Shown piece after piece: positions 13,306 through 33,113 of a DNA stretch of 64,000 nucleotides. A program made the translations under genes and the position numbers. The first letter of the stretch is position 1. Each line of letters begins with the position of its first letter. Source of the DNA: Olsenella profusa DSM 13989 (GTDB taxonomy: Bacteria; Actinomycetota; Coriobacteriia; Coriobacteriales; Atopobiaceae); the NCBI RefSeq assembly GCF_030811115.1, contig NZ_JAUSQK010000001.1, forward strand, positions 1,240,001-1,304,000, read 5' to 3'. The notes below the pieces were generated by a model, which saw nothing but the letters and a program-made list of their open reading frames with translations, had not been told where the DNA came from and did no database searches.

Positions 13306-13443
13306 GAGTCGTATGCAATTGCATGCGGGTGCCGTACCGTATCGGGGCAGGTACACCGATTGCTGTGTTTGTGACATCTGGTGCGAGCGGACAGGGAAAT
13401 GCGAACGACCCCGAGGGACCGGCCGGGAGGTTGCATACGACTC
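13306..13443. mobile_element. Family 2 MITE-like element, copy 1
   Basis: 138 bp bounded by perfect 13-bp inverted ends, GAGTCGTATGCAA (13306-13318) and TTGCATACGACTC (13431-13443). Inside are GCAGGTACACCGATTG and AATGCGAACGACCC, which recur in the other two copies. It lies in the 336-base gap after sngB and encodes nothing credible. Non-autonomous transposition is inferred from the ends; no flanking target duplication was seen. Confidence 0.6.
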
Positions 13444-13570
13444 ACCTCCCCATGCCTGGGCGTTCGCGTGTGGAGGCTGCAGGGTATTGGGTAAAAGCAT
13501 AGCCGTCGTGCGGTCTGGCCGTGGGGCGTCCCCTAGGATAGGGGCAGTCGGCGAGGGGGAGGTGCTCTGC

Positions 13571-14893: not shown

Positions 14894-14933
14894 CCCTCCC
14901 GTGTCATGCTGTCTGCTGGATCGCTCCTCGGGT

Positions 14934-14954
14934 ATATCCCTCCTGCGGGGATAT
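14934..14954. promoter_or_regulatory. Palindrome upstream of nitroreductase gene
   Basis: ATATCCC (14934-14940) and GGGATAT (14948-14954) form perfect arms around a 7-base spacer, 21 bases before the ATG of the nitroreductase. It could be an operator or an RNA hairpin in the leader. Confidence 0.4.
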
Positions 14955-14975
14955 GTGCGATGAGGGAGGCGTCAC

Positions 14976-15500
14976 ATGAACGAGGTCATCAAGGCGATCG
15001 AGGAGCGTCGCAGCACGCGCAGCTACAAGCCCGACGCCGTGCCCAAGGAGCTCATCGAGCAGGTCATGGAGGCCGGCACGTGGGCGGCCAGCGGCATGGG
15101 GCGGCAGTCGCCCATCATCGTCGCCGTCACCGACCGGGCACTGCGTGACCGCCTGTCCGATGCCAACCGCAGGATCATGGGCGGCACGGAGGGCACGGAT
15201 CCCTTCTATGGCGCGTCCGTCGTGCTCGTGGTGCTTGCCTCCAAGGACGTGCCCACCCATGTGTACGATGGCTCACTCGTGCTGGGGACCATGATGCTGG
15301 CGGCGGAGTCGCTGGGCCTGGGCAGCTGCTGGATTCACCGCGCTCGGGAGGAGTTCGAGCAGCCCGAGTTCAGGCAGGTACTTGCCGACCTGGACGTGAG
15401 CGGCGCATACGAGGGTATCGGGCATCTCGCCCTGGGATATGTGGACAGGCCGACGCCTGCCAAGCCACGCAACGACGGTCGCATCCTCTGGGCAGAGTAG
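14976..15500 (+). CDS. Nitroreductase-family FMN protein
   Basis: FMN-dependent NAD(P)H oxidoreductase fold; 174 residues, the short form of the family. The N-terminal IEERRSTRSYKPDAVP carries the FMN phosphate-binding Arg residues. AGTWAASGMGRQSP is the second flavin-contact segment and LAAESLGLGSCWIHRA the C-terminal dimer and flavin motif. It is cytosolic with no signal peptide. GAGGGAGG precedes the ATG. It is monocistronic, with a palindrome upstream and a family 2 element downstream. The substrate (nitro-compound, quinone or flavin) cannot be read from sequence. Confidence 0.9.
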   Translation: MNEVIKAIEERRSTRSYKPDAVPKELIEQVMEAGTWAASGMGRQSPIIVAVTDRALRDRLSDANRRIMGGTEGTDPFYGASVVLVVLASKDVPTHVYDGSLVLGTMMLAAESLGLGSCWIHRAREEFEQPEFRQVLADLDVSGAYEGIGHLALGYVDRPTPAKPRNDGRILWAE

Positions 15501-15523
15501 GGCCTTGTGGGTGCCGTCCCTGA

Positions 15524-15694
15524 GGAGTCGTACGCATCTTTCGTAGGGGACATTCGGGGTCGTATGCAAACGCACACGACCCCGAATTTGTGAAGATGCA
15601 GGTACATGAGTCGTTGACTCTGTCGCGATACCTGCAGTACCCCATTAATTTGCGAACGACTCAACCTGATGTCCTGGCAAATTGCATACGACTC
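15524..15694. mobile_element. Family 2 MITE-like element, copy 2
   Basis: 171 bp running from GAGTCGTACGCAT to TTGCATACGACTC. It contains a perfect 12-bp hairpin, ATTCGGGGTCGT (15552-15563) with ACGACCCCGAAT (15576-15587), then GATGCAGGTAC and TTTGCGAACGACTC as in the other copies. It separates the convergent nitroreductase and glycyl-radical genes, so the hairpin may also help termination. Confidence 0.6.
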
Positions 15695-15726
15695 AAACGA
15701 GGCGAGGTGGGGGACGGGGATAACTG

Positions 15727-18141: not shown

Positions 18142-18172
18142 GGGACATCCCTTTCAAAAGTAAGTTATAAAG

Positions 18173-18188
18173 CTTACGAACGTAATAA
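18173..18188. promoter_or_regulatory. Candidate DeoR operator, glycyl-radical gene
   Basis: CTTACGAACGTAATAA contains the dyad TTACG-AA-CGTAA and sits in the promoter gap between the glycyl-radical gene and the DeoR gene. A close match, CTTACGAATGAAATAA, occurs at 20100 before the activase and aldolase genes. The shared motif in both divergent promoter gaps of the module suggests one regulator. Confidence 0.6.
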
Positions 18189-18328
18189 CTGCACTATAGA
18201 AGTGGGAAGCCCGCACGTCAAGGGAAAGGGACGCCCCACAGCGATTGTCACGATATCTGCATGGTTGCGAACGAGAGTCGCTATGATTTCCCCTGTGCAG
18301 ACAGAGGGTCTGTGTGTGAGGAGATCGC

Positions 18329-19087
18329 ATGGGTCGTAGGGATACGCAGATTCTTTCCGCCCTGAGCGAGCGGGGGCGGATGGACGTCGCCACGCTTGCC
18401 GAGGAGCTGGGCGTCTCGCAGGTGACGATGCGCAAGGACCTCGATGGCCTGGCCGGGCGCCGCCTCGTGCGGCGCGAGCATGGCTTCGCGGAACTGGGCA
18501 GCACGAACGATGTGGCCGGACGCCTTGCCTACCACTACGCGCAGAAGGTCTCCATCGCACGCCGTGCGGCCGAGCTGGTGAGCGATGGCGAGACGGTCAT
18601 GGTCGAGAGCGGCAGCTGCTGTGCCCTCACGGCGCGTGCGCTCCTCGAGTGCCGCTGCGACGTGACGGTGATCACCAACAGCGCCTTCATCGCCGCCTAC
18701 GTGCGCGACCTCCCCCATGCCAGCGTGATCCTGCTGGCGGGCAACTACCAGATGGACGCCCAGGTGACGGTGGGACCCCTCGTGCGCGCCTCCGTCGCGT
18801 CGCTCTCGGTGGACAAGCTCTTCGTGGGGACGGACGGCTACAGTGCGAGCTCCGGCTTCACCAACGCCGATGCCCTGCGCGCCCAGGCCGTGCACGACAT
18901 GGCCGAGCGCGCCGCGAACGTCTACGTGGTGACGGAGTCGGAGAAGTTCTCGCAGCGGGGCGTGGTCTCGCTTGACCTGTCCGGCCGTCCCGTGCATGTG
19001 ATCACGGACATGGGCATCGATGACAGCGTGCGCGCGCAGCTGGCGGCACGGGGCATCGGGCTGCTGTGTGCGGGTGAGGGTGCGTAG
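18329..19087 (+). CDS. DeoR-family transcriptional regulator
   Basis: Sugar-phosphate-responsive regulator of 252 residues. The N-terminal helix-turn-helix reads RMDVATLAEELGVSQVTMRKDL. The C-terminal DeoR sensor domain has VMVESGSCC, VITNSAFIAAYV and the DKLFVGTDGYS segment that surrounds the phosphosugar site. GAGGAG lies just before ATG 18329. It is divergent from the glycyl-radical gene and convergent with its activase, so it is the obvious candidate regulator of the module, acting through the TTACGAA motifs at 18173 and 20100 (inference). Confidence 0.9.
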   Translation: MGRRDTQILSALSERGRMDVATLAEELGVSQVTMRKDLDGLAGRRLVRREHGFAELGSTNDVAGRLAYHYAQKVSIARRAAELVSDGETVMVESGSCCALTARALLECRCDVTVITNSAFIAAYVRDLPHASVILLAGNYQMDAQVTVGPLVRASVASLSVDKLFVGTDGYSASSGFTNADALRAQAVHDMAERAANVYVVTESEKFSQRGVVSLDLSGRPVHVITDMGIDDSVRAQLAARGIGLLCAGEGA

Positions 19088-19095
19088 GCGAGAGC

Positions 19096-20040
19096 CTATG
19101 TGAACGCCTCGATGCCGTGGTCCGCAAAGGCTGCGATGAGGCCCGCAAGGTCCTCCGGATGCAGGGCTGGCGCATCGGATAGCGCGTAGTCGCGCTCCAG
19201 GAGGGCGTACTTGCCCACACCGAGGTTGTGGTAGGGGAGCAGCTGCACGCGCGTGGCCCCCACCTCGTGCAGGCGCCCCGAGAAGCCTTCGGCGCTCGTG
19301 GTGGGGTCTGTAGGATCGAAGTTGAAGCCGGGGATGACGGGGATGCGCACAAGGACGTCCGCACCACGCCCAATGGCCCGGGCGATGTTGCGCACGATGG
19401 GCGCGAGCGGTGCGCCGACCACCTCCTGGTGGCGTGCGTCGTCCCAGTGCTTGAGGTCGCACAGCAGGAGGTCCATGCGCTTGGTGACGCGCCGGAAGGT
19501 GTCCCAGCTGGCATACGAGGTGGTCTCGATGCAGGTGGAGATGCCGCGCCCATGGAGGCGGTCGGCCAGGGCGCAGACGAAGCCGGGCCACAGGAGCGCC
19601 TCTCCACCGGAGAAGGTGACGCCGCCACCCGACTCCGCGTAGAAGGGGACGTCCTGCAGACAGACTGCGAGGACGTCCTCGAGCGAGCGCCTCTCGCCCG
19701 AGACGGAAAGGGCGCCGGCGGGACACTCGCGCACGGCTTGGGCCGCGAGGGCACTCGTCGCGTCCACGCTTGCCACGTCCACGTGGCGCTTGCCGTCCCG
19801 CACCGAGGCCCGGGCACCATGGGGCGCGAGGAGCCCCAGGCAGTGCCCGCAGCCCGTGCAGGCCGTTGCGTTCCACTCCATCTGGGGCTCGCGCGCCTGG
19901 CTCTCGGGGTTCGAGCACCAGGGGCACAGGAGGGGACAGCCCTTGAGGAACACGGTGGTGCGAATGCCCGGTCCGTCGTTGACGCTGAACTTCTGGATGT
20001 CGAGCACGGTTGCCGTGATGTCGGTGCCGTCGTGTGCCAT
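19096..20040 (-). CDS. Glycyl-radical enzyme activating protein
   Basis: Radical SAM enzyme of 314 residues that installs the glycyl radical on its partner. The SAM cluster motif is CPLLCPWC (C-x3-C-x2-C). An inserted ferredoxin-like segment with CTGCGHC and a later Cys before PAGALSV is typical of the longer activases of dehydratase-type enzymes. YAESGGGVTFSGGEALL is the SAM-binding glycine motif. It lies 954 bases from the enzyme gene, with the DeoR gene between them on the opposite strand. Its ATG at 20040 shares a promoter gap with the aldolase gene. Confidence 0.9.
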   Translation of the reverse strand: MAHDGTDITATVLDIQKFSVNDGPGIRTTVFLKGCPLLCPWCSNPESQAREPQMEWNATACTGCGHCLGLLAPHGARASVRDGKRHVDVASVDATSALAAQAVRECPAGALSVSGERRSLEDVLAVCLQDVPFYAESGGGVTFSGGEALLWPGFVCALADRLHGRGISTCIETTSYASWDTFRRVTKRMDLLLCDLKHWDDARHQEVVGAPLAPIVRNIARAIGRGADVLVRIPVIPGFNFDPTDPTTSAEGFSGRLHEVGATRVQLLPYHNLGVGKYALLERDYALSDAPALHPEDLAGLIAAFADHGIEAFT

Positions 20041-20099
20041 GGACGCCTCCTCGTTTCCGTTGCCATGATACGACTCGCTTCGCTCTCTGGGGTACAGAA

Positions 20100-20135
20100 C
20101 TTACGAATGAAATAAAAAATATTTTCGTACAAAGT
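20100..20135. promoter_or_regulatory. Candidate DeoR operator, activase/aldolase
   Basis: CTTACGAATGAAATAA (20100-20115) repeats the motif at 18173. A partly inverted copy, TTTTCGTACAAAGT, follows at about 20122-20135, making an AT-rich dyad between divergent activase and aldolase genes. Confidence 0.55.
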
Positions 20136-20192
20136 AATGGCAAAGCGGTATAGTGCGCATAGACGGAACGATCACAGAGGAAGGGACCTCCC

Positions 20193-20855
20193 ATGGAACT
20201 GATTCTTGACACCGCGGATGCGCAGGCCGTGCATGAGCTCTCGGAGATGCTCACGATTTCGGGTGTGACCACCAACCCCACCATCATCACGCGGTCGGGC
20301 AAGACCCCCGAGCAGGTGTGTGCTGAGATGGACGAGGTCCTCGCCCCCGAGCAGAAGCTCTTCGTGCAGACCGTCTCCACCGACTACGAGGGCATCCTTG
20401 CCGAGGGGCGTCAGATCTGCGCGCTGCGCACGAACGTGTACGCGAAGGTTCCCGTGACGCATGACGGCCTGCGTGCCATCAAGCAGCTCAAGCGTGAGGG
20501 ACTCGGCGTGCTGGCAACGGCCATCTATTCCGCTGACCAGGCGTTCTTTGCGGCCATGAACGGTGCGGACTACCTGGCGCCCTACGTGAACCGCATGTGC
20601 GACTACGGCGATGGCATCCAGGCGGTGCGCGAGCTGCAGGAGATGCTCGAACTCAATCAGCTGCCCGCCAAGGTCTGCGCCGCATCGTTCAAGAACGGCA
20701 GCCAGGTGCACGAGCTGATCCGTGCGGGCGTGGGCGCCGTCACGGTGCCACCTGACGTGCTGTATGCCATGCTCGACCACCCGGGCACCAAGGTCGCCGT
20801 GGACGAGTTCAGCGCGGCATGGAGCGCCGCCTTCGGGCGCGACACGTTTGCGTAG
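20193..20855 (+). CDS. Fructose-6-phosphate aldolase / transaldolase family (FSA type)
   Basis: Class I aldolase of 220 residues with the Schiff-base Lys85 in NVYAKVPVTH, the same position as in E. coli FsaA. GVTTNPTII near residues 24-32 and ADYLAPYVNRM are further family segments. The short length matches FSA/TalC rather than full transaldolase. GGAAGGGACC precedes ATG 20193. In this locus it probably cleaves the product of the glycyl-radical enzyme to glyceraldehyde-3-phosphate and a ketone such as hydroxyacetone (inference from YbiW-FsaA). The divergent activase and shared operator support joint regulation. Confidence 0.9.
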   Translation: MELILDTADAQAVHELSEMLTISGVTTNPTIITRSGKTPEQVCAEMDEVLAPEQKLFVQTVSTDYEGILAEGRQICALRTNVYAKVPVTHDGLRAIKQLKREGLGVLATAIYSADQAFFAAMNGADYLAPYVNRMCDYGDGIQAVRELQEMLELNQLPAKVCAASFKNGSQVHELIRAGVGAVTVPPDVLYAMLDHPGTKVAVDEFSAAWSAAFGRDTFA

Positions 20856-20895
20856 GCGACCTCGGCGGACGTCGCTGGCTTCGTCTGCGTCTGTC

Positions 20896-21012
20896 GGAGT
20901 CGTATGCAAATGCATACGACTCCGTTTTCGGATACGAGCAGGTATACGGGTTGTTGTCTCTGAAATAACTGCCGCAAGGCTCCACTGACCGGCAAAAATT
21001 TGCGAATGACTC
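20896..21012. mobile_element. Family 2 MITE-like element, copy 3
   Basis: A perfect 13-bp hairpin, GGAGTCGTATGCA (20896-20908) and TGCATACGACTCC (20911-20923), is followed by GTTTTCGG, so it can double as a terminator for the aldolase gene. The tail keeps GAGCAGGTATAC, GGTTGTTGTCTCTG and TTTGCGAATGACTC of the family. The far inverted end seen in copies 1 and 2 is missing. Confidence 0.6.
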
Positions 21013-21025
21013 AAAGCAGCCGTAC

Positions 21026-22000
21026 CTATCCGTTGACGACGACGGCCTTGCCGAAGCCATGCGACCCCTCGAGCCAGCGATGCGCCTCGGGCAGCTGGGC
21101 CAGCGTGAAGACGCGCTCCGGCGTGGCGTCGATGTCGTGCGTCTCCACGAAGGCGAGCAGCCCGTCGAGCGCCGCCCCGCTCACGTGGCCCGAATAGAAG
21201 CTCGTGAGGTAGCCGTCCTCCGGCAGGTCCATGATGGGGTCGAAGCCATCCATGTACCATTGGCCACCCAATTGCCCCGTGCTGCACACGATGCCACCCG
21301 CCCTCATATGGCGACAGGTGTCCTTGAGGGTGGCCGGGCCCACGAGCTCGAGCGCACGGTCGAAGCGTTCGTTCGTCTGCAACCTGCCGTCCGTGTCCAG
21401 CACGCAGGCATCGAAACCGTTGTCGAGCAGCAGCTGGGCACGGGCGTCGGTGCGGGTGGTGCCCACCAGGTGCAGGTGCGGCTCGGCGACCCGGGCGAGC
21501 CGCGCGAACGCCAGCCCCACGCCACTGGTCGCCCCGCGCACGAGCACCGTCTGGCCAGCCTCAAGGCGCAGGTTCTTCAGGGAGCCGAACGCCGTATGGT
21601 ACGTCTCGGGAACGGCTGCCAGCACGTCCCAGGGGAGGGAGGTCCTCACGGGGTGGATCTGCTCGTTGGGCAGCAGCACGTACTCGGCGTAGCTGCCATC
21701 GAAGGCACGACCCATCTCCCCCATGATGGAGACGACCCGCTGTCCCTCGGGCAGCCGGTGCGGGTCGGTCGTGACGGCCATCTCGCCCACGCACTCGATG
21801 CCCAGGATGCGGGGGAAGCGCACGGAGGGGGAGAGCCCCTGGCGCGTGAACACCTCGGAGTGGTTGAGGCCAAACGCCAGCACGCGCACGAGCGACCAGC
21901 CCGGCCTCACGGCTGGGACGGCCACCTCGGCGGGGCGCAGCACCTCGGGGCCACCGGCCTCGCTCACCACGACGGCACGCATCGTCTCGGGAACCCCCAT
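21026..22000 (-). CDS. Zinc-type alcohol dehydrogenase superfamily (MDR) oxidoreductase
   Basis: NAD(P)-dependent medium-chain reductase, about 324 residues, of the quinone-reductase-like branch. MRAVVVSEAGGPEVL opens the GroES-like domain, and TVLVRGATSGVGLAFA is the Rossmann loop with the AxxGxG pattern. The structural-zinc cysteines are absent. The start at 22000 follows GGGGAGG. Only one base separates it from the stop of the OpuC ATPase gene, so it is the last gene of that operon. Substrate unknown. A link to osmoprotectant metabolism is suggested only by position. Confidence 0.85.
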   Translation of the reverse strand: MGVPETMRAVVVSEAGGPEVLRPAEVAVPAVRPGWSLVRVLAFGLNHSEVFTRQGLSPSVRFPRILGIECVGEMAVTTDPHRLPEGQRVVSIMGEMGRAFDGSYAEYVLLPNEQIHPVRTSLPWDVLAAVPETYHTAFGSLKNLRLEAGQTVLVRGATSGVGLAFARLARVAEPHLHLVGTTRTDARAQLLLDNGFDACVLDTDGRLQTNERFDRALELVGPATLKDTCRHMRAGGIVCSTGQLGGQWYMDGFDPIMDLPEDGYLTSFYSGHVSGAALDGLLAFVETHDIDATPERVFTLAQLPEAHRWLEGSHGFGKAVVVNG

Positions 22001-22001
22001 G

Positions 22002-22784
22002 CTACCTCCCCGCCACGAGCCGTCGGACGAAGTCCGTGGCGGGTGCCTCCACCAGCTCGTCGGGCGCTGCGTACTGCTGGATGCGTCCGCCGTCCACGAC
22101 GGACACGCGCGTTGCCAGGTGCAGCGCCTCGCGGATGTCATGCGTCACGAACATGATGGTGATGCCCGTCTCGTCAAAGATGCGACGCAGCTCGTGCTGG
22201 AGCTGCTCGCGGGTGATCTCGTCCACGGCACCGAAGGGCTCGTCCATGAGCAGGATGTCCGGCGAGGCCGCCAGCGCCCGCGCGATGCCCACGCGCTGCT
22301 GCTGGCCACCCGACAGCTCCGCGGGATAGCGCCCCAGCAGGTCGTTCTCGAGACCCACGATGCCCATCCACTTATGCACGGCCGCGTGTGTGCGGGCATG
22401 GTCGCTGCCGTTCCAGAGGTTGGGCACATAGGCGATGTTCTGCTCCACCGTCATGTGCGGAAAGAGGACGCTGCCCTGGATGGCATAGCCGATGTTGCGG
22501 CGCAGCTGCACGAGATCGACGTCGCGCACGTTCCTGCCCTCCACCAGCACGTCGCCCGACGTGGGCTTGATGAGGCCGTTCACCATCTTGAGCAGCGTGG
22601 TCTTGCCGCCGCCCGAAGAGCCGATCACGCACACGAACTCGCCGCGCGCAATGGAGAGGGACACGTCGTCGAGCACGAGCTTTGTGGCGCCGGTTGCCGC
22701 GTCATCGTACTCCTTGCTCACGTGGCGGAATTCGATGGCGGGGGTGTCGGCGTCCGTGCGGGGTGTGTTCTCGTTGTCGCTCAT
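22002..22784 (-). CDS. Osmoprotectant ABC transporter ATPase, OpuCA/ProV-like
   Basis: ATP-hydrolysing subunit of a glycine betaine/carnitine/choline-type importer; 260 residues. Walker A is GSSGGGKTT, the signature is LSGGQQQR and Walker B is ILLMDEP. The Q-loop reads YAIQGSVLFPHMT. There is no C-terminal CBS pair, so it is shorter than many OpuCA proteins. The ATG overlaps the stop of the permease/binding-protein gene by four bases (ATGA), and the MDR gene follows after one base. Confidence 0.9.
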   Translation of the reverse strand: MSDNENTPRTDADTPAIEFRHVSKEYDDAATGATKLVLDDVSLSIARGEFVCVIGSSGGGKTTLLKMVNGLIKPTSGDVLVEGRNVRDVDLVQLRRNIGYAIQGSVLFPHMTVEQNIAYVPNLWNGSDHARTHAAVHKWMGIVGLENDLLGRYPAELSGGQQQRVGIARALAASPDILLMDEPFGAVDEITREQLQHELRRIFDETGITIMFVTHDIREALHLATRVSVVDGGRIQQYAAPDELVEAPATDFVRRLVAGR

Positions 22785-24325
22785 GACAGCAGTCCCTTCT
22801 GCTGGAGGTATTCGTGCGCCACGTCCTCGGGCGAGCGCCCCTCGCTCTCCACCTCGTAGTTCATCTGGGCCATGTCCGCATCGGTGATGGTGTCGTTGAG
22901 CTTCTCGAGCACGCCGCGCAGCTCCGGGTGCTCGTCAAGTACCTGCTGGCGCACCACGTTGCCGCAGCGGTACGAGGGGAAGAAGCCCCCATCATCCGTG
23001 AGGACCACCGCGTCTGCCGTGCTCAGCTGCCCGTCGGTGGTGAAGACGGTCATGACGTCCACCTGCCCCTCGGCAAGCGCCTGGTACTTGAGGCCGATGT
23101 CCAAGTCCATCGTGTTGCCGAAGTGCAGACCGTAGGTGTCACAGAATGCCTGGTAGCCATCCGCTCGCTCATAGAAGTCGTACTCCGCGCCAAACGTGAG
23201 CGTGTCGGCCACGCGGGCGAGGTCGCTGTAGGTATGGAGGTCGTACTGGTCGGCAACCTCCTTGCGCACCGCGATGCCATACGTGTCGTTGAAGCCGTAC
23301 ATGCCCACCCACGTGAGGCCGAGCTGGCTCCCATACGCATCGTTGAGCTCGTCGAACCTGCCCTCGTCATAGGCATCGGTACGGTTGAGGACCTCGTTCC
23401 AGCCCGTGCCCGTGTACTCCGGATAGAGGTCGTAGGCACCGGATTCCATGGCGGGCTCGATGTTGGCCGTGCCGCCGCCCACGCCGGTCGTGAGGTCCAC
23501 CTTGAGGTCGGTGTCCTGCTCGATGAGGTCCTTGAGCATGTTGCCCATGATGTACTGCTCGGTCATGGGCTTGGTGGCGATGTGGATGGTCGCGGGCGTC
23601 GGCATGAGCGCATGCGCGATGAGAACGACGGCGGCAACGGCCGCCGTCGCCACCGTGCCCAGGACCAGCCGCCGGTTGGTGCGCTTGTCCTTGGCGCTGC
23701 TCTTCTGCATGCGATGCTCCACGAAGCCGAGGACGCCGTCCACGAGGAGCGCCAGGATGGCGCAGAGCAGCGAGCCGTCTATGGTCATGGCGGCGTTGTT
23801 GGTGGTGATGCCACGATAGATGGCCACGCCCAGGCCACCCGCCCCGATGAACGAGGCGATGCCGGCAAGGGCGACGGTCATGGTCGCCATGGAGCGGATG
23901 CCGCTCATGATGACGGGCATGGCCAGCGGCAGCTTAATCCTGCGCAGGATCTGCCCGTCGGTGGAGCCCATGCCCTGCGCCGCCTCGATGACGGCGGGGT
24001 CCACGTTCGTCAGGCCCGTGTACGTGTTGCGCACCATGGGCAGGAGGGCATAGATGACCAGTGCGATGACCGCCGTGGTGTTGCCCACCCCCGAGAGGGG
24101 GATGAGAAAGCCCAGCATCGAGATGGAGGGGATGGTGTAGAGGAAGTTGATGACGGCGAGCGTCGGTTTGGCGGCACGGGCCCTCTCGCTGATGAGCAGG
24201 CCAAAGAGGCCACCGACCACGATGGCTATCACGATGGCGATGGCGGATAGGGCCAGATGCTCGAGGACCAGCCCGCCAAACCAGCCTGCACGCTCGGTGA
24301 GTGGACTCAGCGTCTCCTGGGGCAT
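22781..24325 (-). CDS. Fused osmoprotectant permease and substrate-binding protein (OpuCB-OpuCC type)
   Basis: Single chain of 514 residues. The first 215 form the permease with about five to six helices and the coupling segment EAAQGMGSTDGQILRRIKLP. A linker helix near 225-245 leads into a glycine-betaine-type binding domain (TKPMTEQYIMGNML, YPEYTGTGW, LTDDGGFFPSY). Fusion of the two parts tethers the receptor to the outer membrane face. ATG 24325 with GGAAGGGG is chosen over a TTG 30 bases upstream. It is the first gene of a three-gene operon. Ligand (betaine, choline, carnitine) not resolved. Confidence 0.92.
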   Translation of the reverse strand: MPQETLSPLTERAGWFGGLVLEHLALSAIAIVIAIVVGGLFGLLISERARAAKPTLAVINFLYTIPSISMLGFLIPLSGVGNTTAVIALVIYALLPMVRNTYTGLTNVDPAVIEAAQGMGSTDGQILRRIKLPLAMPVIMSGIRSMATMTVALAGIASFIGAGGLGVAIYRGITTNNAAMTIDGSLLCAILALLVDGVLGFVEHRMQKSSAKDKRTNRRLVLGTVATAAVAAVVLIAHALMPTPATIHIATKPMTEQYIMGNMLKDLIEQDTDLKVDLTTGVGGGTANIEPAMESGAYDLYPEYTGTGWNEVLNRTDAYDEGRFDELNDAYGSQLGLTWVGMYGFNDTYGIAVRKEVADQYDLHTYSDLARVADTLTFGAEYDFYERADGYQAFCDTYGLHFGNTMDLDIGLKYQALAEGQVDVMTVFTTDGQLSTADAVVLTDDGGFFPSYRCGNVVRQQVLDEHPELRGVLEKLNDTITDADMAQMNYEVESEGRSPEDVAHEYLQQKGLLS

Positions 24326-24476
24326 AGGGTCCCCTTCCAGTAGGTGACGAGGCAATATGACCTATGGTGCCCCGAAGCCGTCCGAGCTATGCGGACGCGT
24401 GATGTACGGGCCGATACCTGTGTGCACATCTCCACATCCATGGGCGCAACATGATTGCTGCCGCTGCCCCTCTTCG

Positions 24477-24640
24477 TGTGGGTGCCGATTGCCTGGCATG
24501 TGGGTGCCTTTTGCTGCATGTGGGTGCCAATCGCCATGGGGCTGTCTATAAATGCGCAGGTCAGCGGAGGCCGTTACGGGAGAAAGGCACCCACATGAAG
24601 AGAATCGCACCCACACGGATGGAGAATCGCACCCACGGGG
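24477..24640. repeat. Family 1 palindromic repeat, copy D
   Basis: GTGGGTGCC units at steps of 22 and 20 bp start at 24477; inverted GCACCCAC units lie at about 24587, 24607 and 24629. The core, GCTGTCTATAAATGCGCAGGT, is nearly identical to that of copy F but differs from the ACAAAAC cores. Together with the promoter for the next ABC gene it fills the 426-base divergent gap. Confidence 0.75.
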
Positions 24641-24751
24641 AGTGACAGTAGAGAGCGAGACGTCAGCCTCCCCAAGATGTAAACTTAGACTAACCATAAG
24701 AAACGGATGGGCGTGGGTGGTACTCCCTGCACCACCCGGAAGGGGCGCGAC

Positions 24752-25462
24752 GTGTTTCAGGATGCCTTTCTCCACATAGACGACCTCAGCAAGGGCTACG
24801 GGACGGGCGATGCGCGCGTGACGGTGCTCACGGACGTCTCCACGCAGCTTGACAGGGGAGAGATCTGCGTGCTCTTTGGCCCCTCCGGCTCGGGAAAGTC
24901 CACGTTCCTCAACCTCGTGGGTGGCCTGGAGCCAGCGGATGGCGGCTCCATTCGCGTGGGGGACACCACCATCACCGACCTCAGGGATCGGGAGCTCGTG
25001 GAGTACCGCCGTCGCGAGCTGGGCTTCATCTTCCAGTTCTACAACCTGGTGCCCGACCTCACGGTGCGCGAGAACATCGAGGTGGCAGGCCATCTCTCCA
25101 AGCGTCCGCTCCCGGTGGACGACCTTCTTAACTCGCTGGGACTGTGGGATCACCGCAAGAAGTTCCCCAACCAGATCTCGGGAGGCCAGCAGCAGCGCTG
25201 CGCCATCGGACGCGCCCTGGCCAAGAACCCGTCGCTGCTGCTGTGCGACGAGCCTACGGGCGCCCTGGACTACAGGACGTCCAAGGAGATCCTCGAGCTG
25301 CTCGAGAGCGTCAACAGGACCTATGGCTCCACGATGGTCATCGTCACGCACAACGATGCCATCCGCCACATGTCTCACCACATCCTGCGTCTCCGCGATG
25401 GCGCCCTCGTGGAGGACAGGATGAACGAGCGGCTCCTGCCTGCCTCGGCGCTCGAGTGGTAG
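24752..25462 (+). CDS. ABC transporter ATPase, MacB/LolD type
   Basis: 236-residue ATPase that pairs with an FtsX-type permease. Walker A is GPSGSGKST, the Q-loop [13 protein letters not shown] is typical of the MacB/LolD branch, the signature is ISGGQQQR and Walker B is LLLCDEP. GTG 24752 is chosen because GGAAGGGG lies ahead of it; an upstream start would add an unconserved tail. It is followed after 10 bases by its permease gene. Such pairs move peptides, lipids or antibiotics or act mechanically. Cargo unknown. Confidence 0.9.
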
Positions 25463-25472
25463 GGGGGTCGCC

Positions 25473-27932
25473 ATGTCTCCCCTCACCAAGCGCCTTCCTC
25501 GCGAGCTTGCCCACAACCTCAGCAAGTACCTGGGCATCTTCTTTCTCATTGGCTTTACGATAGCCATGATCTCGGGCTACCTTGCGGCGGCCCGCTCCAT
25601 CCAGCGCATCGTCGCCGATGCGCGCGCCGCATCCAACCCGCAGGACTTCTCGTTTACGACGCAGTTCAGGGCATCGGACGAGGCGCTGCGTGACGTGCGC
25701 GACTCCCAGGAAGGCACCGAGGTCGCCGAGGACTTCTACGCGGATGTGCCCCTCACGTTTGCGGGCAAGGCCGATGGCACGAACGTGACCGTGCGCCTCT
25801 ACAAGAACCGCACGGACATCGACACGGCCTCCTACGTTGCCGGACGTGCGCCCGACACTGACGACGAGATAGCCCTCGACCGCATCTTCATGACGAACAA
25901 CGGTCTCTCGCTGGGGGACACGGTCACCGTAAGCGGCCATGACCTCACGATTGTGGGGCAGTGCGTGCTGCCGGACTATGAGGCACTCGTCCGCAAGAAC
26001 TCCGACCTGATGTTTGACGTGCTCGACTTCTCGGTGGCACAGGTGACACCAGGCGGCTATGACCTGCTTGCCGGAGACGCCACCACCTATCACTACAGCG
26101 CGCGCTTCGCCGACCGTACCCTTGGTCTTGCGAGCCGCACGACGCGCGAGGAGGACGTCTCAAGGCTCCTGACGGATGACGGGCAGATCGTCACGGAACT
26201 GCTGGATCGCGAGTCCACCAGCTCCATCACGTTTGCCGACGAGGACCTCGCACACGACCAAGTGGGCTATCAGGTCATGCTCTTCCTGCTCATCATGATC
26301 TCCGGCTTCATCTTCGTGGTGCTCACCGATGCCACGATCGAGCAGGAGTCGGCTATCATCGGGACGCTCCTCGCCACGGGCTATCGCACGCGCGAGCTCG
26401 TGCGACACTACCTCATCCTGCCTACGGTCATTGGCGTGCTCGCCGCCATCGTGGGCAACGCCGTCGGCTATGGCGTGTGCGTCAGCTACATGGCGGGTCT
26501 CTATTATCGCAGCTACAGCTTCCCGACGTTCCACGCCTACTTTGACGTGCCCACCTTCGTCGAGACCACGGTCGTCCCCGTCGCGCTCCTCATCCTCGTC
26601 ACCTGGCTGGGCATCAGGCGCAAGTTGGGTGCCACGCCCCTCGCGTTCCTGCGTCACGAGGTGAGCCACACGTCGCGCCGCTCGAACGCTGTCCTGCCGG
26701 ATCGCTGGCCCTTCGTGCGCCGGTTCAGGTGTCGCGTGTTCCTGCGCAACGCCTCGCACTTTGCCGTCCTGTTCCTGGGCATCATGCTCTCGTCCGTGCT
26801 GTTGCTCATGGGGCTCTGCATGCTGCCCATCGTGCGCAATGCCGCCAGCCAGATGGCCCAGACGGTCCGTGCCAATCACATCTACTTCCTCAAGGCACCG
26901 CTTGAGATCGACGAGACGGCCGAGCAGCGCGACGGGGCTGCCGCGCTCAAGGAGCTGTCGTCCGTGGAGGACCCGCAGGCGTCGTTCTCGCAGGAGCGCC
27001 TCATGGACCTGCTCGCGCGTGCCTCCACCGTGCAGGATGCGGCGCACCCCTACAACGACCAGGAGAACGACGAGGGTGCCCTAGGTGGCGCCGAGAAGTT
27101 CGAGACCACGACCCTCGAGGTCAGGCGTCGCTACAGCGACGAGATGGAGTCGGTCACGATCTATGGCATAGATGTGGGCAGCCGCCACTGGGATGACGTG
27201 GACGTCTCTGGCGGAAAGATCGTGGTGGGCCGGGGGCTTGCGGACAAGTGCGACCTGGCCATCGGGCGCCAGGCCACGTTCCGCGACAAGTACACCGACA
27301 CCACCTACACGCTTGCCCCCAGCGTCATTGCGGGCAATGCGACCGACACCAACGTCTACATGAGCCGTACGACCTTCAACGAGCTCTTTGGCAGCGTCAC
27401 GGGGGGTGATCCCGACTACTTCAACGGCTATGCGTCGGATGCGGCGCTCAACCTGGATGGTCGCTACGTGGCCAGTGAGATCACCCCCCACGACATGGAG
27501 GTCGTGGGGGATCAGATGGACTCCTCGATGGGCCAGATCATGGGCATGATGCTCTGGATTGCCATCCCCATCTCGATCGTGCTCATCTACCTGCTCACCA
27601 AGACGGTCATCGACCGTTCGGCGTGCTACATCTCCTACATGAAGGTGTTTGGCTATCGCAACGGGGAGATTCAGCATCTGTACCTGCGGTCGGTCACCTG
27701 GACGGTCATTGGGTCGTACGTGATCTCGCTGCCGCTCGTCATATGGATGGTCAACGGCCTGGTTGCCTACATGATGGCAGGCTACTCGGGCAACATCGAG
27801 ATCGTCTATCCGCCCGCCACACTGATGGGGGTGCTGGCCATTGGCATTGCCACCTACCTGGTGGTCGCCCTCATCCACATGGTGCGCATCAGGCACGTCC
27901 CGCTTGCGGAGGCCCTCAAGGTGCAGGAGTAG
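25473..27932 (+). CDS. FtsX-family ABC permease
   Basis: 819 residues with an N-terminal helix (residues 18-40), a large extracellular domain, three helices from about 265 to 385, a second helix and extracellular domain from about 425 to 680, and three closing helices. This is the duplicated FtsX arrangement typical of Gram-positive MacB-like exporters. The ATG follows AGGGGGGTCG. It forms an operon with the preceding ATPase. No regulator or peptide gene adjoins, so the substrate is not inferable. Confidence 0.88.
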   Translation: MSPLTKRLPRELAHNLSKYLGIFFLIGFTIAMISGYLAAARSIQRIVADARAASNPQDFSFTTQFRASDEALRDVRDSQEGTEVAEDFYADVPLTFAGKADGTNVTVRLYKNRTDIDTASYVAGRAPDTDDEIALDRIFMTNNGLSLGDTVTVSGHDLTIVGQCVLPDYEALVRKNSDLMFDVLDFSVAQVTPGGYDLLAGDATTYHYSARFADRTLGLASRTTREEDVSRLLTDDGQIVTELLDRESTSSITFADEDLAHDQVGYQVMLFLLIMISGFIFVVLTDATIEQESAIIGTLLATGYRTRELVRHYLILPTVIGVLAAIVGNAVGYGVCVSYMAGLYYRSYSFPTFHAYFDVPTFVETTVVPVALLILVTWLGIRRKLGATPLAFLRHEVSHTSRRSNAVLPDRWPFVRRFRCRVFLRNASHFAVLFLGIMLSSVLLLMGLCMLPIVRNAASQMAQTVRANHIYFLKAPLEIDETAEQRDGAAALKELSSVEDPQASFSQERLMDLLARASTVQDAAHPYNDQENDEGALGGAEKFETTTLEVRRRYSDEMESVTIYGIDVGSRHWDDVDVSGGKIVVGRGLADKCDLAIGRQATFRDKYTDTTYTLAPSVIAGNATDTNVYMSRTTFNELFGSVTGGDPDYFNGYASDAALNLDGRYVASEITPHDMEVVGDQMDSSMGQIMGMMLWIAIPISIVLIYLLTKTVIDRSACYISYMKVFGYRNGEIQHLYLRSVTWTVIGSYVISLPLVIWMVNGLVAYMMAGYSGNIEIVYPPATLMGVLAIGIATYLVVALIHMVRIRHVPLAEALKVQE

Positions 27933-27978
27933 CTGTGCGACCGGGCTGTCTGGCGGACTGTTGGCTGCCGCCTGCCAC

Positions 27979-28136
27979 GTGTGGGTACGCTTCATGTGGG
28001 TGCTTTTCTCCATCCCTGCGGGTGCCAATCGATTCATGTGGGTGCCTTTCTCCCGGATGCGGCTGACAAAACACCAGGTCAGCGGAAGCTGCGGGATGCG
28101 AAAAGCACCCACATGCAGCAAAGACACCCACACGGA
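27979..28136. repeat. Family 1 palindromic repeat, copy E
   Basis: Left units at 27979 onward are GTGGGTACG, GTGGGTGCTTTT, GCGGGTGCCAATCG and GTGGGTGCC. Right units are AGCACCCACATG and ACACCCACACGG. The core stem is GCTGAC-N10-GTCAGC, where copy H has GCGACC-N12-GGTCGC, so the stem sequence changes while pairing is kept. It lies between convergent genes. Confidence 0.75.
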
Positions 28137-28208
28137 AGTGGATGGACCTCGCACTGGGTGACGAGTGTTCGTGTGGCGGTGGAGCATCATATGGAAGGAG
28201 GGACGGAG

Positions 28209-29612
28209 CTAGTCTCCGGCCGACCCCGCGGAAAGCTCATGGCCATGCAGCACCTCGATGACGCAGGCATGCTCGGACACGCGTCTGAGGATGTCGGCAT
28301 GCTTGCGCTGGAGGGTCGTGTCGAGGTTCGCGTTCCATTCGTCGAGCAGCAGCAGCCTGACCTTTCCCGCTGCGACCTCGCGCTCGGCCGCCTGGAGCGA
28401 AGCGTCCTTCGCCTGCCCGGTCGAGGACTCCCGCCCGTCCAGCCCCCCGATGTCAAGGACACTGTCTGCCGGAAGCAGGAACGCCTCGTCTCCCCGTTCC
28501 CGCTTGAGCAGGGCGAGCAGGCTGCTCTTGCCTGCGCCATTTGGCCCCCGCACGGTCCAGCGTCCGCTTCCAAGGCCGTGCGTGATTTCCATCACGTCCT
28601 CGAGCGAGCGGAGCGCATGGGCGTCGGTGGGATCCCCGGCCGGTGAGAGGCTGATGAGATTCCACCGTATGGTTCCCCGCGAACGAAGCTCGCGAGGTGT
28701 CAGCAGGAGTCTCTCGGCCACGAGCCTGGTGCGCGAGCGCTTCTCTTGGAACTGGATGATGTAGGCCACGAGCACGCTCACGTCCTGGAGGATGTTGACC
28801 TGCCGCGAGAGCGTCGCCACCAGCGTCGCCAGCATCGCTGCGTTCGTCAGGTTGTCCCTGACGAACCAGACGAGCGCCACCCCAAAGGGAAGGCAGTACA
28901 GCACGATCGTGAGGGAGGTCAGCAGGTCCCGGAACAGCACCAGGTGCACCTGGCTCGAGCGCGAACCCGACAGCGCCGCCTCGAAGTGCCCGCGCCAGGT
29001 GTCGAACGCCAGGCGATTCCCCAGCCAGATGTTTGGCACAGCGGTGCGAACCCGCTGGAAGAGGGCGGCTTGCCGCTCCTGGGAGGAGACTGTGCACGCG
29101 GCGACGGTTGGCCTCGAGAGGAGCATGACCACCAGCGCGATGAGGAAGCCCAGGCCATATGCCGCGGCGAACCGCGCATCGAGTGCCTGGGCGATGACGG
29201 TGCCGTTGAAGAGGACGCCGAGCAGCAGCTCGAGGGCATCGACGCCATAGCCAAGGTCATCCTGGATGGTGGACCACAGCTCATTGACGAGGTAGGGTTC
29301 CCTCTTGTCGCGGACGGCACGGCTGAAGTAGGCTCCCGGTGCATTGTAGTTTGCGATGCCGACATGATGGAGTGCGGCATCATAGAGGTCATAGGTGGCC
29401 TGCTCGAGCTGGACATGAATTCCCACGCTGGGAAAATAGGCACCGGCGAGCAGCACGACGAAGAGCAGGACGCCTCCCACGATGTCGTGCCCCTCCATGA
29501 GCGCCTCGCTGATGAGCGTCACCTGCCATGTGGAGAGGGCGACCATGAGCTGCTCGAGCACGATGAAGAGGAGGCAGAACCACAGGTGCTTGTTCGGTGT
29601 GATTATGTGCAT
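28209..29612 (-). CDS. ABC exporter-like protein with degenerate ATPase domain
   Basis: 467 residues: about six membrane helices in the first 280, then a nucleotide-binding domain. Walker A is GPNGAGKSS and Walker B VRLLLLDEW, but no LSGGQ signature is visible and the domain is short. It therefore resembles the reduced exporters found beside peptide-maturase genes. It starts ten bases inside the end of the preceding SPASM-type ORF and has no ribosome site of its own, so it would rely on translational coupling. Since that upstream gene is broken, the exporter may be a relic. Substrate unknown; a small peptide is the best guess. Confidence 0.7.
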   Translation of the reverse strand: MHIITPNKHLWFCLLFIVLEQLMVALSTWQVTLISEALMEGHDIVGGVLLFVVLLAGAYFPSVGIHVQLEQATYDLYDAALHHVGIANYNAPGAYFSRAVRDKREPYLVNELWSTIQDDLGYGVDALELLLGVLFNGTVIAQALDARFAAAYGLGFLIALVVMLLSRPTVAACTVSSQERQAALFQRVRTAVPNIWLGNRLAFDTWRGHFEAALSGSRSSQVHLVLFRDLLTSLTIVLYCLPFGVALVWFVRDNLTNAAMLATLVATLSRQVNILQDVSVLVAYIIQFQEKRSRTRLVAERLLLTPRELRSRGTIRWNLISLSPAGDPTDAHALRSLEDVMEITHGLGSGRWTVRGPNGAGKSSLLALLKRERGDEAFLLPADSVLDIGGLDGRESSTGQAKDASLQAAEREVAAGKVRLLLLDEWNANLDTTLQRKHADILRRVSEHACVIEVLHGHELSAGSAGD

Positions 29613-29950
29613 GGCGAATGATGCTCTGATAGCAGCTGACGTACCCGAGGCACGAGTATCCTGTCCACAAAGAGACGAAAATTTTCCTTCTCATACTTGC
29701 ATATAGCTGGAATACCTTTGGTCGACCGTTCAATGACGCATCCCCCACCACAGTAACCTTCAATCTCACAGTGCATGCATGCTGGGGACAATCGTTCTTT
29801 CTTTACCCAATCGGGGATGTAGCCGAAGAAGTCAGTCTTTTCTTTGAGACTTCCGAAGGAGTATGCCTTGTTGCCTACCCCGTCTCGGTAGCTCTCGTAG
29901 ACCGCGAGCCGCACGTGGCCGTTCTTCTGGGGTATCTGCTTGAGGTACAT
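29603..29950 (-). pseudogene. Chimeric ORF: transposase N-terminus joined to SPASM C-terminus
   Basis: A 115-codon ORF in two unrelated parts. The first 25-30 residues, beginning MYLKQIPQKNGHVRL and YRDG, look like the N-terminus of an IS1634/IS4-type transposase, complete with its GGAAGGGCGGG ribosome site. From about residue 35 on, it reads as the end of a radical SAM peptide maturase: CMHCEIEGYCGGGC gives the SPASM cluster spacing C-x2-C-x5-C-x3-C, followed by AICKYEKENFRLF. The radical SAM core is gone. Most likely an insertion and deletion fused the IS start to the 3' end of the maturase gene. The ORF is still open and could be expressed. Confidence 0.6.
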
Positions 29951-29980
29951 GTGGTGCCCGCCCTTCCTCGAACTACCCCA

Positions 29981-29992
29981 TGTTGTACAACA
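29981..29992. promoter_or_regulatory. Perfect palindrome before the chimeric ORF
   Basis: TGTTGTACAACA is a perfect 12-bp palindrome 31 bases upstream of the ORF start, followed by the related ACTGTACAAATAC. It may be a transposase operator or part of the IS end. Confidence 0.35.
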
Positions 29993-30110
29993 TACCACGC
30001 ACTATCACACTGTACAAATACGTGAAATTTGACAAGAAGATAGCCCTCAGAGGGCTGGTCGTTGAGGGAGTCTGCTCGAGAAGTCAAGTCATGCTACTGC
30101 GGAAGAGTGG

Positions 30111-30234
30111 TGTGGGTGCCAATCGCCATGGGGCTGTCTACAAATGCGCAGGTCAGCGGAAGCGGTGGGATGCGAAAAACACCCACACGACAGCGAATCG
30201 CACCCACACGGATCGTGTCATACCCGTGTGGGAC
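30111..30234. repeat. Family 1 palindromic repeat, copy F (short)
   Basis: One left unit, GTGTGGGTGCCAATCGCC, the core GGGCTGTCTACAAATGCGCAGG shared with copy D apart from one base, and two right units, ACACCCACACG and GCACCCACACGG. A further ACCCGTGTGGG follows. It occupies most of the 363-base gap before the helicase gene. Confidence 0.7.
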
Positions 30235-30266
30235 ATCTGATGCTCCCTAGAGGGCATCGTCGTCGC

Positions 30267-30289
30267 TATACTAGGAACAGGTGTTCCTA
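30267..30289 (+). promoter_or_regulatory. sngC-like promoter with LexA/SOS-type box
   Basis: TATACT (30267-30272) runs into TAGGAACA-GG-TGTTCCTA (30272-30289), an 18-bp dyad whose core GAAC-AGGT-GTTC is an exact Gram-positive LexA box. The sngA-like gene has the same -10 and a near-identical box at 10059. Confidence 0.7.
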
Positions 30290-30313
30290 TCGTGGACGTG
30301 ACAGGGGGCGAGC

Positions 30314-32710
30314 ATGGCAGACACGGGCGTGTTCGATCGGCTGGCGCCCTTCGTGCAGGACTTCATCTATGAGCACGACTGGGAGTCCCTGCGGGCCATC
30401 CAGGTTGCCGCCGCAGACGCCATCCTCACCACCGAGGACAACGTGCTGCTCACCTCGTTCACGGCCTCGGGCAAGACGGAGGCGGCCTTCTTTCCCATCC
30501 TCACGCAGCTGTGGGAGGATCCGCCCGCAACGGTGGGCTGCATCTACGTGGGCCCGCTCAAGGCCCTCATCAACGACCAGTTCTATCGCCTCACGGACCT
30601 CTGCGAGGAGGGCGACATCCCCGTATGGCACTGGCATGGGGACGTCTCGGCCTCGCACAAGGCGCGCCTCATGAAGCACCCCTCGGGCATCCTGCAGATC
30701 ACGCCCGAGTCGCTTGAAGCCATGCTGCTGCACCGCCATGCCGCCATCCCCAAGCTGTTCGGGGACCTCCGCTTCGTGGTCATAGACGAGGTCCACTCGC
30801 TCCTGCGGGGCGATCGCGGCGCGCAGACGCTCTGCCTCATCGAGCGGCTCTCGCGCCTGGCGCAGGTGCGCCCGCGGCGCATCGGCCTCTCGGCCACCAT
30901 CGGGGACCCCGAGGCGACGGCACGCATCCTGGGTGCCGGTTCCGGGCGCGACACCGTCATCCCACGCGTGCGGGAGAAGGGCCAGACCTGGCGCATCTCC
31001 ATGGAGCACTTCTATGGCCATGGCCCCCAGTCTGCCGAGCGGGCCACAGGCGGGGAGCTTGCGCGTGCGGGTGGCACCACGGGGGGCTCGCTGCCTGTGG
31101 ATGCCATGGTCGAACGGGTGGACGAGGGCCCAGCGCGGCTGTCGGAGCGTGCAGGGGAGGGCCGGACGCCACTCGCCACCGCCACGCCGGACGTCGCCGC
31201 CCTCGAGGCGGACGTCTCGGACACGGCGCCCAAGGAGGCCGACCCTGGTCTGGCCTACGTGTTCGAATACACCCGCGGCCGCACGTGCCTGGTGTTCTCC
31301 AACTCGCGCGAGGAGTGCGAGGAGGTCACGTCCACGCTGCGCACGTACTGCGAGAGGAGGGGCGAGCCCAACCGCTTCCTCATCCATCACGGCAACCTCT
31401 CCTCCAGCTTCCGCGAGTCGGCGGAGGAGCTCATGCGCGACCCCGAGAGCACCCTCACCACGTGCACCACGGCAACGCTCGAGCTGGGCATAGACATCGG
31501 TCGGCTCGAGCGCGCCTTCCAGATGGACGCCCCCTTCACGGTCTCGGCGTTCCTGCAGCGCATGGGCCGCACGGGCAGGCGCGGCCAGCCGCCCGAGATG
31601 TGGTTCGTCATGCGCGAGGACCCGCCCGAGCCCCGTGCGCTCCTGCCCGAGACCATCCCCTGGAAGCTCCTGCAGGGCATCGCGCTGGTCCAGCTCTACC
31701 TCGAGGAACGCTGGGTGGAACCGCCGCGCGAAGGCAGAAGGCACTACAGTCTGCTCTACCACCAGACCATGGCCACCCTCGCCTCGTCGGGGGAGCTCAC
31801 GCCGGCCGCCCTGGCGGCGCGCGTGCTCTCGCTCTCGCCGTTCGCGAACGTCTCGCAGGACGACTACCGCACGCTCCTGCGCCACCTCATCGATACCGAG
31901 CAGATCGAGCGGACGGAGACGGGTGGACTCATCGTGGGGCTGGCCGGGGAGCGTGTGACCAACGACTTCCGCTTCTACGGCGTGTTCGTGGAGAGCGAGG
32001 AGTACACCGTGCGGGCGGACAGTCAGGAGCTGGGCACCGTGGTGCAGCCGCCTCCACCGGGGGAGAAGCTCGCCATCGCGGGGAGCGTGTGGATCGTGGA
32101 GGAGGTGGACCACCGCAAGCGCCTCGTCTACGTGACGGAGGTCAAGGGGAGGGTGCCCGCCTACTTTGGCGAGTGCCCCGGCGACATCAACACGCGCATC
32201 CTGGAGCGCATGCGTCAGGTGCTGGCCGAGCAGCGAGACTATCCCTACCTGCGTGACAACGCACGGGCACGACTGGCCGCCGCGCGCCACGAGGCGGCTG
32301 CTGCGGGCATCACCGAGGGGGCCAGGAGGTCCGGCGGCGGGCAGTCGCAGATGTCCCTGGTCAACCTGGGAGGGGACACCTGGGCGCTCTTCCCCTGGCT
32401 GGGCACGTACGCCTTCCTGGCGCTCGAGCGCGTCATCAAGCTGCGCATGCCGACGAGCCTGGGCATCAAGGGCGTGGACGTGAGCCGACCCTACTACATC
32501 CAGTTCCGCATGGCCGTCTCGGCTGAGGAGTTCCTGGATGCCCTGAGCGAGGCCCTTGCCGCAGAGATTGACCCCCTGAGCCTGCTCTATCCCAAGGAGC
32601 TGCCCATCTTTGACAAGTACGACGAGTTCCTGCCCCCCGAGCTGGTGCGCAAGGGCTTTGCCGAGGGCGTGCTGGACGTCGCGGGCGCCCGTGCCCGCGT
32701 GCTCGGGTGA
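30314..32710 (+). CDS. sngC: Lhr-like DEAD/DEAH helicase, SngC-like
   Basis: Superfamily 2 helicase of 798 residues. Motif I is SFTASGKTEA near residue 50, motif Ia YVGPLKALINDQF, motif II DEVH near 157-160, motif III LSATIG, motif V TTATLELGIDIG and motif VI QRMGRTGRRGQ. A long C-terminal half with winged-helix and WH-adjacent segments follows, as in Lhr/BrxHI proteins. AGGGGGCGAGC precedes ATG 30314. Shango systems and BREX type 2 pair such a helicase with a BrxD-like ATPase. Here the nearest such ATPase and a TerB protein are at 10101-13234, and the matching SOS-type boxes tie them together (inference). A standalone repair helicase is the alternative. Confidence 0.8.
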   Translation: MADTGVFDRLAPFVQDFIYEHDWESLRAIQVAAADAILTTEDNVLLTSFTASGKTEAAFFPILTQLWEDPPATVGCIYVGPLKALINDQFYRLTDLCEEGDIPVWHWHGDVSASHKARLMKHPSGILQITPESLEAMLLHRHAAIPKLFGDLRFVVIDEVHSLLRGDRGAQTLCLIERLSRLAQVRPRRIGLSATIGDPEATARILGAGSGRDTVIPRVREKGQTWRISMEHFYGHGPQSAERATGGELARAGGTTGGSLPVDAMVERVDEGPARLSERAGEGRTPLATATPDVAALEADVSDTAPKEADPGLAYVFEYTRGRTCLVFSNSREECEEVTSTLRTYCERRGEPNRFLIHHGNLSSSFRESAEELMRDPESTLTTCTTATLELGIDIGRLERAFQMDAPFTVSAFLQRMGRTGRRGQPPEMWFVMREDPPEPRALLPETIPWKLLQGIALVQLYLEERWVEPPREGRRHYSLLYHQTMATLASSGELTPAALAARVLSLSPFANVSQDDYRTLLRHLIDTEQIERTETGGLIVGLAGERVTNDFRFYGVFVESEEYTVRADSQELGTVVQPPPPGEKLAIAGSVWIVEEVDHRKRLVYVTEVKGRVPAYFGECPGDINTRILERMRQVLAEQRDYPYLRDNARARLAAARHEAAAAGITEGARRSGGGQSQMSLVNLGGDTWALFPWLGTYAFLALERVIKLRMPTSLGIKGVDVSRPYYIQFRMAVSAEEFLDALSEALAAEIDPLSLLYPKELPIFDKYDEFLPPELVRKGFAEGVLDVAGARARVLG

Positions 32711-32794
32711 CGGCGCGTTCACAGGATACACACAAATCGGGCCTCTCGGCCCAAGGGGCTTGCAAAAAGTAAGGCATAGGTTATTATAGGCTCT

Positions 32795-32930
32795 GCAAGT
32801 AAGACAAGGGTTACTTACTTGTGTGCGTGTTTTACCCTACCTGATGCAGGCGAACCCTCTCCTCGCACTGCAGACAGGTCCCAGGCGCCACCGGCATTCC
32901 CCCTTTCCTGTGCCGGTGGCGCGTATTGTG
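32795..32930 (+). ncRNA. Candidate structured small RNA
   Basis: TTGCAA (32760-32765) and TATTAT (32782-32787) make a plausible promoter with no gene behind it. The predicted transcript has the dyad CAAGTAAG/CTTACTTG, then ACCTG..GCAG pairing with CTGC..CAGGT, and ends in a perfect 12-bp hairpin, GCGCCACCGGCA (32885-32896) with TGCCGGTGGCGC (32911-32922), followed by GTATTGTG. The T-run is weak. No known RNA family was recognised, and a lost gene's leader is possible. Confidence 0.3.
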
Positions 32931-32953
32931 TGGAATGCTGCTCTCATGTGTCC

Positions 32954-33113
32954 CGTGGGTGCCAATCGATTCATGTGGGTGCCATTCTCACGAACGCGGG
33001 CCACAAAGCAGCAGGTCGCCAAAGACGCATCCGGGAGAAAAGCACCCACACGCAGCATATGGCACCCATAGAGGTGGGAAAGGACACCCACACGCAGCGG
33101 AAGGCGCCCACAC
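32954..33113. repeat. Family 1 palindromic repeat, copy G
   Basis: Left units GTGGGTGCCAATCGATTC and GTGGGTGCC; core CCACAAAGCAGCAGGTCGCC with closing ATCCGGGAGAAAAG; right units AGCACCCACACG, GGCACCCATAG, ACACCCACACG and GCGCCCACAC at about 20-bp steps. Confidence 0.75.

Follow-up and report, generated by a model that had tools for sequence, protein, structure and literature searches.

A 115-residue open reading frame (ORF) in Olsenella profusa DSM 13989 carries the start of an IS1634-family transposase fused to the SPASM end of a radical SAM peptide maturase, and we estimate at about 77% the probability that it is a decay product, formed by insertion of an insertion sequence (IS) and a subsequent deletion that joined the transposase to the maturase in a precursor-maturase-exporter operon. 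The ORF lies in a stretch of 64,000 nucleotides (the window) of a genome available as one 2.6-Mb contig, and the features around it are collected in Table 1. An intact relative of the operon is present in a genome of the same taxonomic order, G199, and the locus is absent from a genome of the same species, G234. An earlier note on this DNA had read the region mainly as a peptide (RiPP) locus being lost; this reading is the best supported, given the intact gene order in G199 and the lack of any match to the missing maturase part elsewhere in the DSM 13989 genome.

Table 1. Features at the hybrid locus (window positions)
Feature	Positions	Strand	Basis
Intact ORF, divergent ABC-type exporter, 467 aa	28209..29612	-	37% identity to the product encoded downstream of the maturase in G199; P-loop, STGQ and LLDEWNANLD kept
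Hybrid ORF, 115 aa	29603..29950	-	ATG at 29950
SPASM C terminus of a ryptide-like radical SAM maturase, stop codon included (stub)	29603..29878	-	NF040899, E = 1.9e-9; aligned to G199 maturase residues 391-481
Transposase codons 1-24, IS1634 family	29879..29950	-	96% identity to the N terminus of the L011 transposase
IS left-end remnant, ~230 of ~1957 bp	29879..30109	-	Similarity to L013 up to 30106; the CTTCCGCAG end motif suggests an outer end at ~30109
Terminator-like hairpin, IS left end, upstream of the hybrid ORF	30042..30056	-	Consensus scan only
Dispersed intergenic repeat copy abutting the IS end	30110..30212	.	One left TGTGGGTG box

Two origins of the hybrid ORF

Judged by similarity, the two origins of the ORF, an IS1634-family start and a maturase end, are confirmed, each half lying far above chance, in line with what the earlier note had claimed. 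Over residues 1 to 24, identity to the N terminus of a 580-aa transposase in an Eggerthellaceae contig (L011) is 96%, and from residue 25 on NF040899, a ryptide maturase model, comes closest (E = 1.9e-9, 36.7 bits, model positions 380 to 461 of 464). No gap separates the two: IS homology ends with codon 24 (29881 to 29879), and maturase homology begins with codon 25 (29878). The frame is still open and overlaps the start of the exporter-like gene, also as claimed, with 10 bases in common between the hybrid stop, which lies inside the exporter gene, and the exporter ATG at 29612. Neither a stop codon nor a frameshift was found in the stub, and this unbroken frame is consistent with recent decay but also with retention. 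Use of an alternative GTG upstream would move the start of the ORF to 29998.

The IS1634-family half

The L011 transposase matches the IS1634-family model NF033559 (E = 3.2e-108); the earlier note, with IS1634/IS4-like, had the family right. The IS-leader DNA is 85% identical to L011 over 117 bp (99/117), 82% identical to contig L012 over 175 bp (143/175), and 72% identical to an Atopobiaceae contig, L013, over 216 bp, where similarity extends to 30106. A TTCCGCAG end motif is common to the window and all three contigs, with the window copy at ~30109, and the end motifs give a complete element of ~1957 bp in L011 and L012. The likeness to this IS comprises the left end, the leader, and the first 24 transposase codons; the right end and the full transposase that a complete family member would have are not present, and matches to the rest of the L011 transposase in the window were at chance level.

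The remnant also differs from a five-copy element of the DSM 13989 genome. That element is represented by five 589-aa ORFs with a similar start (48% identity over 33 residues; 68% at the DNA level over 127 bp), and, because these ORFs belong to a different element, as does one weaker match, the parental IS was not found in this genome. The search for the parental IS that the earlier note advised thus gave no high-identity parent.

The probable outer end of the IS lies directly against a copy of an intergenic repeat that is dispersed in the genome; each of the 11 copies aligned has one to three left-hand TGTGGGTG boxes and one to three right-hand CACCCACA boxes. The repeat has 39 matches in the DSM 13989 genome at E ≤ 1e-5, some of them on both strands of one place, and many in G234; copies in the window lie at 24472-24636, 27988-28145, 30111-30212, 32957-33099, 45602-45764, and 51618-51752, among others. 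Among the window copies, the one at 30110 alone lacks the first part of the reference copy, its similarity beginning at position 50. Truncation of this copy by the IS was considered but is not shown: the copies at 569550 and 1061347 of the genome, without a known IS, have the same short form with a single left TGTGGGTG box. Since two other copies are equally short, the short form is no evidence of truncation.

The maturase half

The stub has cysteines at residues 58, 61, 67, 71, and 84 of the hybrid ORF, that is, C-x2-C-x5-C-x3-C-x12-C, so that both the C-x2-C-x5-C-x3-C cluster noted earlier and the downstream cysteine of a SPASM domain are present. When the stub was compared with the intact G199 maturase (tblastn), it aligned with residues 410 to 473 (E = 5.6e-14). 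The general models respond weakly: no Pfam model matched the hybrid ORF at its cutoff, and the SPASM model TIGR04085 gave 22.8 bits, under its curated cutoff of 27 bits. NF040899 is the best model for the stub as well as for the G199 maturase, at 36.7 and 158.2 bits, respectively, both below its curated cutoff of 600 bits. Ryptides are known from streptococci, whereas the relatives described here are in Coriobacteriia-type genomes.

Unlike a ryptide maturase, the stub has no radical SAM core; the CxxxCxxC motif is absent from the hybrid ORF, which agrees with the earlier reading. Counterparts of G199 maturase residues C366 and C387, which both precede the junction, are likewise missing from the hybrid. 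In SPASM proteins, the upstream cysteines are required for both auxiliary clusters, and from the structures of anaerobic sulfatase maturases we take it that the cysteines kept in the stub could hold one auxiliary cluster at most. The stub cannot act as a radical SAM maturase. No other part of the maturase was detected in the DSM 13989 genome at E ≤ 10 with the family model and the G199 protein as queries, and searches of the window for a second maturase piece or the G199 precursor gave only chance-level matches.

An intact arrangement in G199

In G199, a 45-aa ORF, a 482-aa maturase gene, and a 475-aa exporter ORF follow each other on one strand in this order, the latter two in overlapping frames. 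The G199 maturase spans positions 7 to 458 of the 464 in NF040899 (158.2 bits), matches Pfam Radical_SAM (E = 7.1e-13), and has the radical SAM cysteines C116, C120, and C123. Because its score is far below the 600-bit cutoff, we call it ryptide-like rather than a ryptide maturase. The 475-aa product is 37% identical to the window exporter. The 45-aa ORF, which matches no Pfam model, ends ...LIPIRY, i.e., in Arg-Tyr; since PMC13361665 describes ryptides as peptides carrying an arginine-tyrosine cross-link, this ORF is a fair candidate for the precursor.

A class-wide search with the SPASM half matched 16 of 396 genomes at E ≤ 0.01, the DSM 13989 genome included. The only strong matches were in that genome and in G199 (E = 1.6e-15 for the latter); the remaining fourteen, at E = 3.7e-4 or worse, were set aside as general SPASM similarity. 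Within the genus of G199, 4 of 43 genomes matched the maturase at E ≤ 1e-15, G199 alone at full length and the other three partially at 26 to 32% identity. Plasmid matches to the G199 maturase (the best 15 of 30 records) had 21.8 to 26.0% identity and were read as other maturases. The earlier suggestion that an intact maturase and precursor be sought in sister strains was answered in part: G199, a more distant relative, has an intact maturase with a candidate precursor ahead of it, and G234, of the same species, has no match to the stub.

The exporter

The window exporter reaches only 17.3 bits against Pfam ABC_tran, under the cutoff of 25 bits. Searched against the PDB, a six-member profile of its family nonetheless matched BmrA at E = 3.5e-13 and MsbA at E = 1.1e-11, the BmrA match including the membrane part, which likens the family to half ABC exporters of this type. 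Across the six homologues the invariant columns are G-x-N-G-x-G-K-S, S-x-G-Q, D-E-W, L-D, and H, so that Walker A, signature, Walker B, and H-loop follow the membrane part in one chain, as in a peptide-exporting ABC transporter. The usual ABC signature is LSGGQ; the window exporter differs from BmrA/MsbA-type proteins in having STGQ in its place and in scoring below the ABC_tran cutoff. Genes beside family members, such as the maturase in G199, suggest that the family may export a modified peptide.

In the class sample, the exporter was found in 2 of 396 genomes, DSM 13989 and G199, the same two that gave strong SPASM-half matches. With the G199 protein as query, the only match in a phylum sample was DSM 13989 (1/396), and three congeneric genomes had no match. 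Third-position GC (GC3) is 0.50 in the stub (29603-29878) versus 0.83 in the exporter (28209-29612), and the matching parts of G199 have values of 0.54 (maturase) and 0.52 (exporter); the gap in the window, which counts against a simple decay of one operon, could reflect either different gene histories or longer adaptation of the exporter.

The site in related genomes

Neither the SPASM half nor the exporter has a match in G234. At this site, G234 has the neighbors on both sides without the stretch that holds a permease gene, the exporter, and the stub: near-identity to the window stops at ~24450 and resumes at ~30260, and its matches to 14948-24636 (98.6%) and 30110-32963 (93.4%) meet within one repeat. 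The homology edges at 24636 and 30110 reflect repeat similarity and were rejected as an insertion point. Elsewhere, G234 has relatives of the 24.4- to 28.0-kb part of the window at 72 to 78% identity and a 71% match to the IS remnant. Since the stretch with the exporter and stub is missing at the G234 site and the exporter is unmatched in three congeners, the locus is accessory.

In the three congeneric genomes, the gene found here at ~11.9 to 13.2 kb and the helicase gene, whose start in the window is at 30314, are no more than ~160 bases apart. Window positions 13200-30310 are thus extra in DSM 13989 relative to these genomes and are partly common to G234.

Origin of the hybrid ORF

In the history that we favor, an operon for a precursor, a ryptide-like radical SAM/SPASM maturase, and an ABC exporter would have stood beside the helicase gene, and an IS1634-family element would have landed ahead of the operon, where the intergenic repeat ends, with its transposase in the direction of the operon. 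An illegitimate deletion of ~3 kb, as estimated from sizes in relatives, would then have run from transposase codon 24 to about maturase codon 390 and taken with it the bulk of the IS together with the precursor and the radical SAM core. The join keeps the reading frame, and the start codon and leader of the IS now stand on a SPASM stub of 115 aa; the stop of this stub overlaps the exporter start, and exporter translation may continue by coupling to it. One insertion and one deletion would explain the missing IS body, precursor, and radical SAM core alike. The usual IS-adjacent deletion starts at the IS end and would leave no transposase codons; an illegitimate event is therefore more likely. 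As no high-identity parental IS turned up, nor this very operon with its maturase complete, the deletion is inferred, like the order of events and the coupling; the two origins, the junction, the intact relative, and the absence from G234 are shown.

Other histories have to be weighed against this one. The IS tip and the maturase fragment may have been joined elsewhere and have come in as a single piece that included the exporter. At this locus, everything from ~24.45-24.64 kb to 30.11-30.26 kb is missing from G234, and with repeat copies at its two edges the block could have been mobile as a unit; the DSM 13989 genome also yielded no parental IS. However, no other copy of the joined piece was present in the genomes, plasmids, and genome contigs searched, and we regard this origin as unlikely. 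We hold it rather improbable that the hybrid was retained, with the IS start signals and stub kept to express an exporter that serves alone, for example in immunity to related peptides of neighbors. The frame kept over the join, the 10-base overlap, an open exporter with ATPase motifs and host-like GC3, and exporter relatives without an annotated maturase in a Psychrobacter plasmid and a viral contig (the latter judged by eye) are all consistent with retention, but there is a single example, an in-frame join has a one-in-three chance, and a consensus scan of 28100-30330 found no minus-strand promoter and a terminator-like hairpin upstream of the ORF (4 such sites in the region, against 1.0 expected in shuffles). 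A kept fusion, in which the IS start signals and the 24-residue tip express a stub translationally coupled to a solo exporter that protects from peptides no longer made, appears quite improbable; such a stub would possibly still bind one iron-sulfur cluster.

The earlier note had named a free-standing SPASM domain as its alternative and a full-length ORF conserved as one family across species as the observation that would overturn its main reading. In favor of this alternative, the frame is uninterrupted and five SPASM cysteines remain, but the first 24 residues match a transposase at 96% and the upstream maturase cysteines are gone from the one occurrence of the ORF. When the full-length hybrid was used as the query, 3 of 100 genomes matched, its own included; the other two begin at residue 1 and extend no further than residues 29 and 47, in frames of the size of a transposase, so that 0 of 99 other genomes match across both halves. 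There was no match in plasmids, three loci in genome contigs match from residue 1 to residues 24, 24, and 58 only, and one viral match covers residues 27 to 48. We consequently regard a conserved family with an IS-like N terminus as extremely improbable. An assembly or sequencing artefact could account for a junction seen in one genome only, yet the genome is in one contig and the frames are open on both sides of the junction, which makes an error very improbable.

On the favored history of insertion and deletion, the locus is a base-level example of an IS helping to dismantle a peptide-biosynthesis operon while the exporter is left open, and it illustrates that a small ORF resembling a domain may be left over from decay and need not represent a new family. 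The biology is ordinary gene decay, resolved fairly well, and it is the intact G199 locus that makes the decay readable. A literature search returned no paper joining insertion sequence, RiPP, radical SAM, and pseudogene.

Exporter relatives on plasmids and in a virus

A side result may prove more useful, namely, that exporter relatives occur beside varied candidate peptide-modifying enzymes, including DUF6875 proteins near Trp-ended ORFs. Relatives were found in 5 of 72,556 plasmid records, and the four examined, from Methylophaga, Moraxella, Acinetobacter, and Psychrobacter, have a DUF6875 gene alongside in two, a HEXXH protein in one, and no annotated peptide-modifying gene in one (Psychrobacter). 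A viral contig also encodes a relative (21% identity), with no maturase beside it in an ORF list judged by eye.

In the Methylophaga (L067:3822-6035) and Moraxella (L069:3160-5351) plasmids, the exporter directly follows the DUF6875 gene, and small ORFs with Trp-rich C termini lie further upstream, ending ...CGWGGGWSW and ...VTPWRW, respectively. According to PMC13307353, DUF6875 proteins are said to bind heme and to be able to oxidize tryptophan. The combination of a DUF6875 gene, Trp-ended small ORFs, and an exporter is thus a candidate class of Trp-modified peptides. In the Acinetobacter plasmid (L068:2819-5318), a 71-aa ORF is followed by a putative HEXXH peptide modification protein and then by an exporter of the same family.
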